From the NCBI GenBank assembly GCA_012840355.1, contig DULN01000009.1:322414-386413 (forward strand): a stretch of DNA of 64,000 bases, written 5' to 3'. The notes beneath the pieces were generated by a model, which had not been told where the DNA came from, ran no database searches, and saw only the letters and a program-made list of their open reading frames with translations. The stretch comes from Clostridiales bacterium (GTDB taxonomy: Bacteria; Bacillota; Clostridia; Oscillospirales; CAG-272). Made by a program: the position numbers and the translations under genes. Position 1 is the first letter of the stretch. Each line of letters begins with the position of its first letter. Below, piece after piece: positions 14,862 through 20,756 of the stretch.

Positions 14862-17048
14862 TCAATTTAACACTCCAGGCTCAAGCGGCTTGCTTCTAAA
14901 TGTCACCGGCCTGCCGTCGCCGCCGCGCACTTTGACCGAAACCGGCACGCCGTCCTTCCATTTGATGTCAATTTCCGCTCCGCCGCGCGCGCGCAAGCCA
15001 TACACCTCGCCGTCCTTCCACTCTGGTGGAAGCGCTGGGAGTATGTCATATGTTTCCCCCTGCGACTGAAGCAGCGCCTCTGCGATGCCGGCGATACCGC
15101 CGAAGTTGCCGTCAATCTGGAACGGCGGATGGCTGTCGAAGAGGTTGTCGTATGTCGACTTTCCGAGCAAGAGCCGCACGTTCTCGCCGACTTTCTCTCC
15201 GTCGCGCAGCCTTGCCCACATGCAGATTATCCACGCGCGGCTCCAGCCGGTGTGCCCGCCGCCATGCGCGAGCCTGCGCTCGAGAGTCTTCCTCGCCGCC
15301 GTAAAGTAAGGCTCTTTGCCAAGCTGCCAGGAGGGGTAAAGGCCATAAAGGTGCGATATATGCCTGTGTCCTGGCTCAGCCTCGTCGTAATCCTCGGGCC
15401 ATTCCATAATCTGGCCGTGCTTTCCAATTTGGGGCTTCGGCAGCTTCTCGCGCATCGTAATTATCTGCTCTGCAAAATCTTCGTCCACGCCGAGGATCTT
15501 TGACGACTCGGCAACGGCGGTGAACAGGTCGTAAATTATCATCGAGTCCATCGTCGCGCCCCAGCAAAGGCATCCCCGCTCGCCTGACGGCAAAATATAG
15601 GTGTTCTCGGGCGACACCGAAGGGCAGGTGACGAGCATGCCGTCATGTTCGACAAGAAAATCGACGAAAAACTCCGCCGCGCTCTTTAAGACCGGGTAAG
15701 CGCGTTTTAAGAACTCTTTGTCGGACGGGTTATACTCATAGCGGTACCAAAAATGGAGCGCCAGCCACGCGCCGCCCATAACCCAATACGAGCCGGGGAT
15801 ATAGCGGTCCTGCGGCGCTGTGTCCGCCCATATGTCCGTATTGTGGTGCGCCACAAAGCCGCGGCAGCCGTACATCTCCTGCGCGGTCTGTTTGCCGCGC
15901 TCAGCCATGCGCTCAACAAGCTCAAACAACGGCTCGGCGCATTCGGAGAGGTTGCAGCACTCCGCCGGCCAGTAGTTCATCTCGGTGTTGATGTTGATTG
16001 TATATTTGCTATCCCACGGTGGCAAAAAGTCGCGGTTCCAAATGCCTTGAAGCGTAGCGGGGAGCGTGCCGGGCCGGCTGCAGCATATCAGCAGGTATCG
16101 CCCAAACGCAAAGTATAGCTCCGAAGCAGCGCGCATCGCGTCGGCGCAGCCTTCGCGCACGTCGGCGAGCAGCTTGTCTGTCGGGTAGCTTGCAAATTTT
16201 TCGCGCTCCTCGTCGGAAAGCAAACTCAGCGAGGCGCGGTTATAAAGCCGCCCATAGTCTGCAATATGCTCCGAAAGCAAGCATTCCCAATCTTTTTCGA
16301 GCGCTGCGCGGATTTTCGCCAGCGCTGCCTCAAGCGGGTCTTTTTCTCGGAAAGTCGTCTCGCCGTCGAAAACGACAATGAGCTCTTTCACATCGCGCGC
16401 GATGAGGTACTCTCCGATTGTATAAACCTCGCCGCCGCCAACAGCCTTTGCTGTCGCCGCAGCCGCAAAGCAGACGCCTCCGCCACCGGTTTCACCCACA
16501 AGCCATATCGCGCCTTCTTTTGAGCCGCATGAGTCGAAATACCTGCCGCGGTCGAGCCGCATCTCAAACGAAAACGGCTCGTCGCCTACATACCGCATTA
16601 CAATAACGCCCGCGGGCGCAGAGGCGATTATCTCACGCCGGTATGCCGCGCCGCCTATTTTGTACGACACAGCCGCGACGGCGCACTCCAGGTCCAGCGT
16701 ACGCTCATAGTCCGAAGGCTCGCCCGGGCGCGCATGACGTATGTTTATATAGGCGTCGCAAAGCGTCTGATACGGGCGCATCGTTTCGGGCAGAGCCGTA
16801 AACGCACGCACCGTGAGCCGTTCAGCTTCGGCAATTTTGCCTTCGAAAATCAGCCGGCGGATTTCGGGAAGGTATTTTTTCGCGTCGGGGTTAATGCGGT
16901 TTTGCGGCCCGCCGTACCAAACGCTGTCTTCGTTAAACTGGATCCGCTCATCCCTTATGCCTCCGAAGACCATGGCGCCTAGCCGCCCGTTGCCAATCGG
17001 CAACGCCTTGTTCCAATCGTTTGCGGGAGAGGTATAATATGTGCGCAT
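14862..17048 (-). CDS. Glycoside hydrolase family 95 (alpha-L-fucosidase type)
   Basis: The 728-residue protein has the GH95 architecture: N-terminal beta domain (ALPIGNGRLGAMVFGG, IQFNEDSVWYGGP), an (alpha/alpha)6 catalytic barrel, and a short C-terminal beta domain. Motifs corresponding to known catalytic positions are visible: the NINTEMNYW segment near residue 350, PSVSPENTY near 478 and DGNFGGIAGI near 645. Family members remove alpha-1,2-linked fucose or, in some cases, L-galactose. No signal peptide is present, so it should act in the cytosol on imported glycans. GGAGG lies 7 bases before the ATG. It fits with fucI and fucA elsewhere in the window. Confidence 0.93.
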   Translation of the reverse strand: MRTYYTSPANDWNKALPIGNGRLGAMVFGGIRDERIQFNEDSVWYGGPQNRINPDAKKYLPEIRRLIFEGKIAEAERLTVRAFTALPETMRPYQTLCDAYINIRHARPGEPSDYERTLDLECAVAAVSYKIGGAAYRREIIASAPAGVIVMRYVGDEPFSFEMRLDRGRYFDSCGSKEGAIWLVGETGGGGVCFAAAATAKAVGGGEVYTIGEYLIARDVKELIVVFDGETTFREKDPLEAALAKIRAALEKDWECLLSEHIADYGRLYNRASLSLLSDEEREKFASYPTDKLLADVREGCADAMRAASELYFAFGRYLLICCSRPGTLPATLQGIWNRDFLPPWDSKYTININTEMNYWPAECCNLSECAEPLFELVERMAERGKQTAQEMYGCRGFVAHHNTDIWADTAPQDRYIPGSYWVMGGAWLALHFWYRYEYNPSDKEFLKRAYPVLKSAAEFFVDFLVEHDGMLVTCPSVSPENTYILPSGERGCLCWGATMDSMIIYDLFTAVAESSKILGVDEDFAEQIITMREKLPKPQIGKHGQIMEWPEDYDEAEPGHRHISHLYGLYPSWQLGKEPYFTAARKTLERRLAHGGGHTGWSRAWIICMWARLRDGEKVGENVRLLLGKSTYDNLFDSHPPFQIDGNFGGIAGIAEALLQSQGETYDILPALPPEWKDGEVYGLRARGGAEIDIKWKDGVPVSVKVRGGDGRPVTFRSKPLEPGVLN

Positions 17049-18823: not shown

Positions 18824-18873
18824 AACTAAAATTATACTTTTGCGAAAATTTATAGCAATACTTTTATGCCGAA

Positions 18874-18913
18874 ATGCCGCCCCTCTTAGGTATTAGGCCT
18901 CAAGGGGCGGCAT
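18874..18913 (-). terminator. Strong hairpin after the GGGtGRT gene
   Basis: ATGCCGCCCCT (18874-18884) pairs perfectly with AGGGGCGGCAT (18903-18913). The minus-strand tail is only weakly T-rich (TTCGGCATAAAAG), while T5 lies on the plus-strand side. Confidence 0.65.
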
Positions 18914-18950
18914 CTTGCTGTTTTTATTATACCTTAAAACTCGGCAAATT

Positions 18951-19955
18951 TTATTTGCTTGTGGCGACCGCGACCGCCAGCGCGACCGACGCACCGACCA
19001 TCGGGTTGTTGCCCATGCCTATAAGGCCCATCATTTCGACATGCGCGGGAACCGAGGAGCTGCCAGCGAACTGGGCGTCGCTATGCATGCGGCCCATCGA
19101 GTCTGTAAGGCCGTAAGATGCGGGGCCGGCTGCCATATTGTCGGGATGCAGCGTGCGGCCGGTACCGCCGCCGGAAGCGACCGAGAAATATTTTTTACCG
19201 TTTTCGATCGCCCATTTCTTATATGTGCCGGCCACAAGGTGCTGGAAGCGGGTCGGGTTTGTGGAGTTGCCGGTTATCGACACGTCGACCTGCTCGTGCT
19301 TCATTATCGCGACGCCTTCGAGCACGTCGTTTGCGCCGTAGACTTTAACCTTCGACTTCTCGCCTTCCGAGAACTTGACCTCACCCAGTATTTTGAGCTC
19401 GTCGGTGTAGAAGTCGTACTCGGTCTTTACATATGTAAACCCGTTGATGCGGGAGATTATATAGGCTGCGTCTTTGCCAAGCCCGTTAAGGATGACGCGC
19501 AGCGGATCTTTGCGCACTTTGTTTGCAGTGCGCGCGATGCCTATCGCGCCTTCGGCGGCGGCGAAGGACTCATGCCCGGCAAGGAAGCAGAAGCATTTTG
19601 TCTCTTCGCGCAAGAGCATTGCGGCGAGGTTGCCGTGGCCGAGGCCGACTTTGCGGCTTTCGGCAACTGAGCCGGGCACGCAAAATGCCTGAAGTCCTAT
19701 GCCGATTGCTTCGGCGGCGTCGGCCGCGGTCTGGACATTCTTCTTTAACGCTATCGCAGTGCCAAGCGTGTAAGCCCAAACGGCGTTGTCAAACGCGATG
19801 GGCTGGACTCCGCGCACGATGGACTCGACATTTATGCCTTTGCTCTCGCATATCGCGCGAGCTTCCTCAAGGTTCGCAATCCCATACTCGGCGAGACACT
19901 TATTTATTTTATCGATGCGCCTTTCGTAGCCTTCAAACCTGATTTTATCCGACAT
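18951..19955 (-). CDS. GGGtGRT protein (conserved, uncharacterised)
   Basis: The 334-residue cytosolic protein carries the motif GGGTGRTLHPDN near residue 255 that gives the family its name, and near the C-terminus GLIGMGNNPMVGASVALAVA. Other conserved-looking segments are GLGHGNLAAMLLREETKCFCFLAGHESFA (quoted in part) near residue 110 and DVSITGNSTNPTRFQHLV near 220. No known catalytic motif is evident. Its gene lies 18 bases after the NifU-like scaffold gene; these two families are, to my knowledge, regularly neighbours in anaerobes, which implies a joint function in Fe-S cluster or redox chemistry. GGGAGG 8 bases before the ATG gives a strong start. Confidence 0.88.
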   Translation of the reverse strand: MSDKIRFEGYERRIDKINKCLAEYGIANLEEARAICESKGINVESIVRGVQPIAFDNAVWAYTLGTAIALKKNVQTAADAAEAIGIGLQAFCVPGSVAESRKVGLGHGNLAAMLLREETKCFCFLAGHESFAAAEGAIGIARTANKVRKDPLRVILNGLGKDAAYIISRINGFTYVKTEYDFYTDELKILGEVKFSEGEKSKVKVYGANDVLEGVAIMKHEQVDVSITGNSTNPTRFQHLVAGTYKKWAIENGKKYFSVASGGGTGRTLHPDNMAAGPASYGLTDSMGRMHSDAQFAGSSSVPAHVEMMGLIGMGNNPMVGASVALAVAVATSK

Positions 19956-19973
19956 TATAAGTGCCTCCCCTCA

Positions 19974-20693
19974 TTACTCTTTGCGCGGATCTATGTACTT
20001 TACGGCTTCGTCGTATCTGCCGTATGTGCCGATTGCGTTCTCAAACGCCTCTTTGTGCGGTACGCCCGCCTTGATCGCGTCAAGCATCTTGCCGATATTT
20101 ATGAATTTATAGCCTATAACCTCGTTGTTTTCATCGAGTCCCATCGAAAGGACATATCCTTCGGTCATCTCAAGGTAGCGCACGCCTTTAGCTTTGGTGC
20201 CGAACATGGTGCCGACCTGCGAGCGCAGGTGCTTGCCGAGGTCTTCAAGCGAGGCGCCGATAGGCAGTCCGTTTTCGGAGAATGCGGTCTGCGAGCGGCC
20301 GTATGCAATCTGCAGGAAAAGCTCGCGCATCGCGACGTTGATCGCGTCGCAGACAAGGTCGGTGTTGAGCGCTTCAAGCAGCGTTTTGCCCTGCAGGATT
20401 TCGGCCGCCATAGCCGCCGAGTGGGTCATTCCGGAGCAGCCGATGGTTTCGACCAATGCTTCTTCTATAATGCCGTTTTTAACATTGAGCGTCAGCTTGC
20501 ATGCGCCCTGCTGAGGCGCGCAGTAGCCTACGCCGTGCGTAAGGCCGCTTATGTCTTTTATGTCATAGGCAAGCACCCATTTACCCTCTTCGGGAATGGG
20601 AGCCGGGCCGTGATGCGGGCCTTTTGCGACAGTGCACATGCGCTCCACTTCATGGGAATATGCGTACTGGCAATGGCACGATTCGCAATTCAT
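19974..20693 (-). CDS. NifU-like iron-sulfur cluster scaffold protein with extended C-terminus
   Basis: The 239-residue protein has a NifU N-terminal-like domain: GYCAPQQGACKLTL and IGCSGMTHSAAMAAEIL match the cysteine-bearing strand and helix of IscU/NifU scaffolds. It differs from IscU by an N-terminal cysteine cluster (CESCHC within the first eight residues, then C19) and about 90 extra C-terminal residues ending in GTYGRYDEAVKYIDP. No iscS or suf gene is in the window. It is the first gene of the operon with the GGGtGRT gene. AAAGGAGA 7 bases before the ATG and a clear promoter (20728-20756) support the start. Confidence 0.88.
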   Translation of the reverse strand: MNCESCHCQYAYSHEVERMCTVAKGPHHGPAPIPEEGKWVLAYDIKDISGLTHGVGYCAPQQGACKLTLNVKNGIIEEALVETIGCSGMTHSAAMAAEILQGKTLLEALNTDLVCDAINVAMRELFLQIAYGRSQTAFSENGLPIGASLEDLGKHLRSQVGTMFGTKAKGVRYLEMTEGYVLSMGLDENNEVIGYKFINIGKMLDAIKAGVPHKEAFENAIGTYGRYDEAVKYIDPRKE

Positions 20694-20727
20694 CTTTACG
20701 TCTCCTTTACGATATAGTCACTCCTAT

Positions 20728-20756
20728 ATTGTAGACAAACAAGAGTATAAATTCAA
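20728..20756 (-). promoter_or_regulatory. Sigma-A promoter for the NifU-like/GGGtGRT operon
   Basis: On the minus strand TTGAAT (20751-20756) and TACAAT (20728-20733) with a 17-base spacer, about 35 bases before the start codon. Confidence 0.78.

Follow-up and report, generated by a model that had tools for sequence, protein, structure and literature searches.

A conserved gene pair of a NifU-like and a GGGtGRT protein, possibly two subunits of an iron-dependent enzyme

The gene pair

A NifU-like protein and a protein of the GGGtGRT family (PF14057) are encoded side by side in the genome of Clostridiales bacterium (assembly GCA_012840355.1, contig DULN01000009.1), within the stretch of 64,000 nucleotides that was analysed here and is called the window. 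A sequence-only reading of this DNA had described the NifU-like gene as being followed after 18 bases by the GGGtGRT gene; both were found where it had placed them, on the minus strand, which it had not given (Table 1). The pair of the window is a typical example of a two-gene system that is widespread and uncharacterised; its products we tentatively regard as two subunits of one enzyme.

Table 1. Features of the gene pair and its flanks in the window
Feature	Positions	Strand	Remarks
NifU-like gene	19974..20693 (start 20693, end 19974)	minus	239 amino acids
GGGtGRT gene (PF14057)	18951..19955 (start 19955, end 18951)	minus	334 amino acids
Intergenic gap, 18 bases	19956..19973	minus	GGGAGG ribosome-binding-like site at 19964-19969 (sequence reading)
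AAGGAGA, ribosome-binding-like, of the NifU-like gene	20701..20707	minus	sequence reading
Promoter-like TTGAAT-17-TACAAT	20728..20756	minus	consensus match only, 9/12
Last 30 codons of the GGGtGRT gene	18954..19043	minus	approximately the attachment stretch of other genomes; inferred for the window
Strong GC-rich hairpin, 3' of the GGGtGRT gene	18873..18914	minus	U-rich tail on the opposite strand

Conservation of the pair

In an even sample of 148 genomes from the class of the host, the GGGtGRT gene was found in 66 and the long NifU-like gene in 67, and all 66 carry both. Of the NifU-like copies, 66 of 68 share the strand of the GGGtGRT gene and precede it. The distance to the profile match is at most 45 bases for 60 of these and 57 to 788 bases for the other six. 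The two exceptions, in G007 and G126, are truncated matches from fragmented draft genomes; the GGGtGRT piece of G126 begins at base 2 of another contig. The long form is distinct from ordinary NifU, as its weakest match in this survey scored 315.9 bits and the next protein 32.1.

At least 8000 proteins were scored in each of the family searches with the two proteins of the window. From data holding one genome per species the best 80 loci of at least 589 relatives, i.e. the closest ones, were inspected, and the pair is adjacent in 79 of them, the contig of the last (L076) ending 63 bases upstream. By their labels the 80 loci include Treponema, Elusimicrobiales, Succinivibrio and Gastranaerophilales; most of the 80 are metagenome bins, in which single labels may be wrong. 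Phylum-wide the family is rarer, being present in 19 of 299 genomes. Of these 19, 14 lie outside the class of the host, and adjacency holds in all 15 loci taken from them. In addition, a plasmid collection gave ten matches, several of them on megabase replicons or assembly pieces. Eight were examined, the other two being further Vibrio records, and the NifU-like gene lies just upstream in all eight (Vibrio, two Persicobacter, Parabacteroides, Bacteroides, Phocaeicola, Collinsella and Subdoligranulum). As the Vibrio in question, Vibrio sp. THAF191d with the pair on a 1.85-Mb replicon (L258), came from a marine aquarium, the pair is not confined to gut anaerobes.

Apart from an opposite-strand cluster in 21 of the 80 loci, which we take for shadow frames, no other cluster of neighbouring open reading frames of at least 80 amino acids occurs in more than seven loci; one seven-locus cluster resembles an ABC ATPase. 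In Parabacteroides distasonis (L260:2400-6948) a hypothetical gene of 63 amino acids lies between the two genes, a nitroreductase-family gene follows the pair and OsmC and TlpA-type genes precede it, which is possibly a redox context.

When the two proteins were joined into one query, 76 of the 120 matches listed cover at least 92% of it. In all, 21 proteins were inspected, some from outside this class; they are mostly single-contig frames, and most of the fused frames look like products of stop loss, deletions or assembly errors. P0319 and P0321, however, of 582 amino acids each and 86% identical, occur on four and two contigs, respectively, P0321 keeping a methionine at the junction. Because the open frame has survived their divergence they are taken as a true fusion in one lineage, and the evidence for fusion is limited to them. 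Genome G349 contains an ordinary pair (L252) together with a second, divergent adjacent pair (L257, G349:C94), the proteins of which are 70 and 61% identical to those of the window; the motif there reads GGGIGRT and both H270 and H291 are replaced. This pair possibly has a new specificity.

The sequence-only reading had stated that these families travel together and had proposed a survey of co-occurrence and adjacency, on which the idea could have failed. The adjacency proved to be conserved across genomes, which supports a dedicated two-gene system.

Features of the two proteins

The NifU-like protein passes the Pfam threshold for the NifU_N domain (PF01592) with 22.7 bits against a cut-off of 22, as a partial match of residues 65-111 to profile positions 38-88 of 127. 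All of its 73 aligned relatives match the same profile at E values up to 1, the best being 5.7e-5. None of the NCBIfam equivalogs for IscU, NifU and SufU is reached (27.1, 23 and 19.6 bits against cut-offs of 187.9, 192.4 and 92.5). An IscU-type fold spans approximately residues 34-135, which places the protein among the IscU-fold members, and is followed by a conserved C-terminal part of residues 136-239 or so. This C-terminal extension, noticed already in the sequence-only reading, is real (239 amino acids against 145 in the canonical NifU of the same genome). The unusual N-terminal cluster of cysteines described there fared differently; the cysteines are present but not conserved, occurring in one to three of 73 aligned rows, that of the window included, and the short tail bearing them varies even between close relatives.

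Conserved instead are C58, C86 and C115, which are present in 98 of 98 sequences; H53 is invariant too. C65 is near-invariant, being absent from three of the 98 (L256, the Vibrio protein of L258 and one of the Persicobacter proteins, L264).

The GGGtGRT protein is a full member of its family, PF14057 matching residues 7-332 with profile positions 1-326 of 327 at 650.9 bits (cut-off 27). It is predicted to consist of a helical N-terminal part and a Rossmann-like C-terminal half with invariant loops, one of which is the GGGTGRT motif at residues 262-268, where R267 is found in 96 of 96 sequences. Across these 96 sequences 103 of the 334 positions are invariant. They include His, Asp, Glu, Lys, Arg and Asn residues, and the loops of the predicted Rossmann-like half contain many of these. 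None of the invariant positions is a cysteine (C121 92/96, C92 88/96, C36 86/96), and a CxxC motif occurs in just 3 of 71 sequences; therefore the GGGtGRT protein is no conventional iron-sulfur acceptor.

A relation to SIS-type phosphosugar isomerases, to which a motif and a single VIA row had pointed, was considered and is not claimed. In detail, hhalign gave probabilities of 0.3% for SIS_2 (17 sequences), 0.2% for SIS (20), 0.2% for SDR (19), 1.2% for Fe-ADH (18) and 0.5% for PFK (19), the sets being drawn from 20 loci each, and three column-shuffled controls gave 0.1-0.9%, so that the comparison with SIS stays within the control range.

Relation to known iron-sulfur systems

The NifU-like protein shares the core fold of the IscU/NifU N-terminal scaffold (PF01592; TIGR01999, TIGR03419) at a weak profile score, and differs from it by the additional C-terminal part of about 100 residues and by a partner that is GGGtGRT and not a desulfurase. 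C86 takes the position of IscU Cys63. Cys37 of IscU is flanked by C58 and C65 in the sequence alignments, neither being aligned to it, and Cys106 is not matched by C115. The segment around the third cysteine of canonical NifU, which reads LPPAK in the NifU of the host, corresponds to a gap in the NifU-like protein. SufU (TIGR01994), a zinc-dependent sulfurtransferase, belongs to the same fold class.

The host possesses machinery of its own, as NifS, NifU and MnmA are clustered on contig C9, separate from the pair, and this other NifU scores 209.7 on TIGR03419 with its 145 amino acids; SUFBD gave no match in the host genome at E 1e-10. Among the surveyed genomes canonical NifU_N (E 1e-12) is about as frequent in those with GGGtGRT (56 of 66) as in those lacking it (75 of 82; Fisher 0.30). 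The same holds for SUFBD, with 28 of 66 against 29 of 82 (Fisher 0.40), and of the ten pair-bearing genomes lacking canonical NifU_N nine have SUFBD. As these counts show no tie of the pair to one assembly system, a role as general scaffold is not proposed. SUF genes adjoin the pair in one record, that of Collinsella.

Response to iron and abundance

BT0173-BT0174 of Bacteroides thetaiotaomicron (PF14057 with its NifU neighbour) correspond to the pair of the window in families, gene order and spacing, the two showing no difference of substance apart from the variable Cys-bearing N-terminal tail, and are reported to fall 11 to 12.8-fold on iron depletion (PMC10434189). In Clostridium pasteurianum GGGtGRT rises 7.1-fold (early) and 2.2-fold (late) in iron excess, the former apparently being the largest early iron-excess value of the table, and a NifU-related protein, its neighbour by locus tag, rises 1.6 to 3.7-fold (PMC5395762). 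In a study of substrates one comparison shows this NifU-related protein reduced 2.1-fold (PMC4916542).

As to abundance, "nitrogen-fixing protein NifU" belongs to the 25 top-ranking protein families of the rumen in three of three cows (0.28, 1.72 and 1.47%; PMC6043501), and in Parabacteroides and Collinsella this name is attached to the long form adjoining GGGtGRT. High expression of GGGtGRT is described for chicken gut anaerobes (PMC11204068). Lower levels in colorectal-cancer metaproteomes are reported for a GGGtGRT protein and for a protein with a NifU N-terminal domain, the kind of which is unstated (PMC13041051), and in the rumen proteins of both names vary with feeding (PMC7035244). For Clostridium innocuum, software lists GGGtGRT as a putative virulence factor, in a passage that mentions no test (PMC9942572). 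In the literature naming GGGtGRT, as far as accessible, no activity is assigned to it; subscription papers lay mostly outside this search and such an assignment may exist.

Interpretation

The near-strict pairing, the fusion, the metal-type ligands of one partner, the invariant polar pocket of the other and the dependence on iron lead us to suggest, tentatively, that the pair forms a heteromeric iron enzyme, in which a resident iron-cofactor subunit works together with a Rossmann-like catalytic subunit, rather than a scaffold serving a client. As C58, C86 and C115 are invariant in 98 of 98 NifU-like sequences and GGGtGRT has no invariant cysteine, the metal site is more likely to lie in the NifU-like subunit itself, judged by these residues. 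The remodelled IscU-fold subunit would hold an iron or iron-sulfur centre via these three cysteines, the GGGtGRT subunit is predicted to provide the substrate pocket, and the two would bind stoichiometrically. The centre would first be assembled by the ordinary NifS-NifU or SUF-type machinery of the cell and would then stay in place as a working cofactor instead of being handed on, its open ligand position facing the GGGtGRT pocket. From the residue set one may guess at a metal-assisted lyase, isomerase or redox step acting on a small polar or phosphorylated metabolite. The more specific proposal, that an IscU-fold carrier has been turned into a catalytic cofactor subunit whose three-cysteine centre with an open iron site acts at the GGGtGRT interface as Lewis acid or in redox chemistry, is doubtful by comparison.

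Several points weigh against the interpretation as an enzyme. Expression that depends on iron is equally expected of a scaffold or a store. Three cysteines plus one further ligand are also the set of a transfer scaffold, so that the cysteine count seen in the sequences would suit a scaffold too, and C65, which at 73 of 73 had seemed a fourth Cys ligand, was dropped once three of 98 sequences proved to lack it. Both structures are single-chain predictions, with a predicted template-modelling score (pTM) of 0.52 for the NifU-like protein and a predicted local distance difference test (pLDDT) value below 50 in the GGGTGRT loop (263-280). Over 109 loci the distances in one protein correlate with those in the other (r 0.598, 0 of 999 permutations), which is partly expected from shared ancestry alone. 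The 105 upstream regions showed no enrichment of Fur boxes, the mean best score of 11.12 of 19 being the same in real and shuffled sequences. The rumen percentages of cow 1 add up to about 99 over 25 families and hence seem to refer to the list, the whole proteome not being their basis. Likewise, the equation of the rumen name with the long NifU-like family is inferred from the Parabacteroides and Collinsella annotation. Finally, no source consulted shows metal binding, a complex or an activity of the pair.

The sequence-only reading had proposed that the NifU-like protein loads a cluster onto its partner. A dedicated scaffold that builds a cluster and passes it to GGGtGRT as the client enzyme would account for the IscU fold, the three invariant cysteines, the strict pairing and the iron response, yet we consider it rather unlikely. 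While the published iron response fits an iron-cofactor role, and to that extent the proposal stands, the loading itself is weakened by a presumed client without an invariant cysteine and with hardly any CxxC. Moreover, LPPxK, which adjoins the third cysteine and is the chaperone-binding motif used in cluster release from IscU, is absent from 73 of 73 NifU-like proteins, and a family among the top 25 in three rumen samples resembles a subunit more than a scaffold present in trace amounts.

That the pair is a buffer, storing iron and sulfide when plentiful and releasing them in shortage, seems improbable to us. Its production mostly under plentiful iron in one Bacteroidota and one Clostridium, and the high expression or abundance reported, would suit a store; the many invariant positions of GGGtGRT, however, resemble an active site, and cysteines are few. 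Least probable is a transfer of sulfur from a SufU-like, zinc-binding persulfide carrier to GGGtGRT as a sulfurtransferase making a thio-metabolite, as the SufU score is far below its cut-off, no desulfurase gene is among the neighbour clusters present in at least four of the 80 loci, and the iron response is left unexplained.

Integration at the 3' end of the GGGtGRT gene

Four of the 66 genomes with the pair (G017, G018, G114 and G128) contain a second copy of the final 24 to 28 codons of the GGGtGRT gene, located 1.8 to 14.9 kb downstream. The direct DNA repeats of these loci (L113-L116) measure 83 to 98 bases and are 93.5 to 100% identical, that of L114 being exact over 83 bp. The intervals of L113 and L114 begin with tyrosine integrases of similar sequence; the former carries a type III restriction system and the latter a SEFIR-domain gene, called bSEFIR by PADLOC. 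In L115 an integrase lies just beyond the second repeat copy, and in L116 no integrase was seen.

In a collection of phage contigs 64 stretches were matched, and 25 loci (L217-L241) encode GGGtGRT sequence, three of them near-complete with the NifU-like gene and 22 partial, all reaching the 3' end; a tyrosine integrase was recognised by similarity or motif in the examined flanks of 11. This count is biased, as both search patterns (VPAHVEM, GNNPMVG) are encoded close to the 3' end and pieces without it were undetectable, and the DNA repeats are therefore the main evidence for a recurrent attachment site. An unbiased protein search of phage records gave six matches, namely two near-complete sequences, three 3' pieces at the start of a record and one 5' piece at the end. 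L263:6143-6304 was listed with these loci.

On this sequence evidence tyrosine-integrase elements, including islands with defence genes, have integrated repeatedly at the 3' end of the GGGtGRT gene. In the host genome a whole-genome search found no second copy of the 3' end, and no literature match contained GGGtGRT, attB and "integration site" together.

Surroundings of the pair

A promoter of its own had been claimed for the pair. A promoter-like site is indeed present upstream, but the evidence is weak because it is one of eight comparable sites in 2.2 kb on both strands, where shuffled sequences gave 2.7 +/- 1.7. In the 105 upstream regions a GC-rich palindromic motif scored 124, against 41 and 34 in two shuffled sets; it may represent terminators of upstream genes, or an operator.

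The strong hairpin reported behind the pair was confirmed in its strength, a fold of 101 nt having -36.5 kcal/mol and a z-score of -4.15, equalled by none of 200 shuffles. Its U-rich tail, however, is on the other strand by sequence reading, so that for this operon the hairpin does not qualify as a textbook terminator; it is also missing from the terminator scan output for the region.

The nearest neighbours on the same strand are an RluA-type pseudouridine synthase and a HAD hydrolase, and on the other strand an open reading frame without a family match; they have no evident connection with the pair. A GH95-type glycoside hydrolase gene lies nearby (14862-17048). No Rfam match was obtained in the window at gathering scores.

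Conclusion

The label "nitrogen-fixing protein NifU" can mislead, as in two annotated genomes it marks this pair and not nitrogen fixation, and metaproteome tables of the rumen that list "nitrogen fixation" may carry a wrong label. The occurrence in several phyla, the high reported expression, the invariance of about one third of GGGtGRT and the iron-linked expression in two species suggest that the pair probably has a weighty role in anaerobic life. Naming the protein that would hold the metal, and the residues of the putative pocket, makes this old pair of "function unknown" directly testable. If the reading as a cofactor subunit with its catalytic partner is true, the pair would constitute a new class of iron-sulfur enzymes, in gut anaerobes and beyond.
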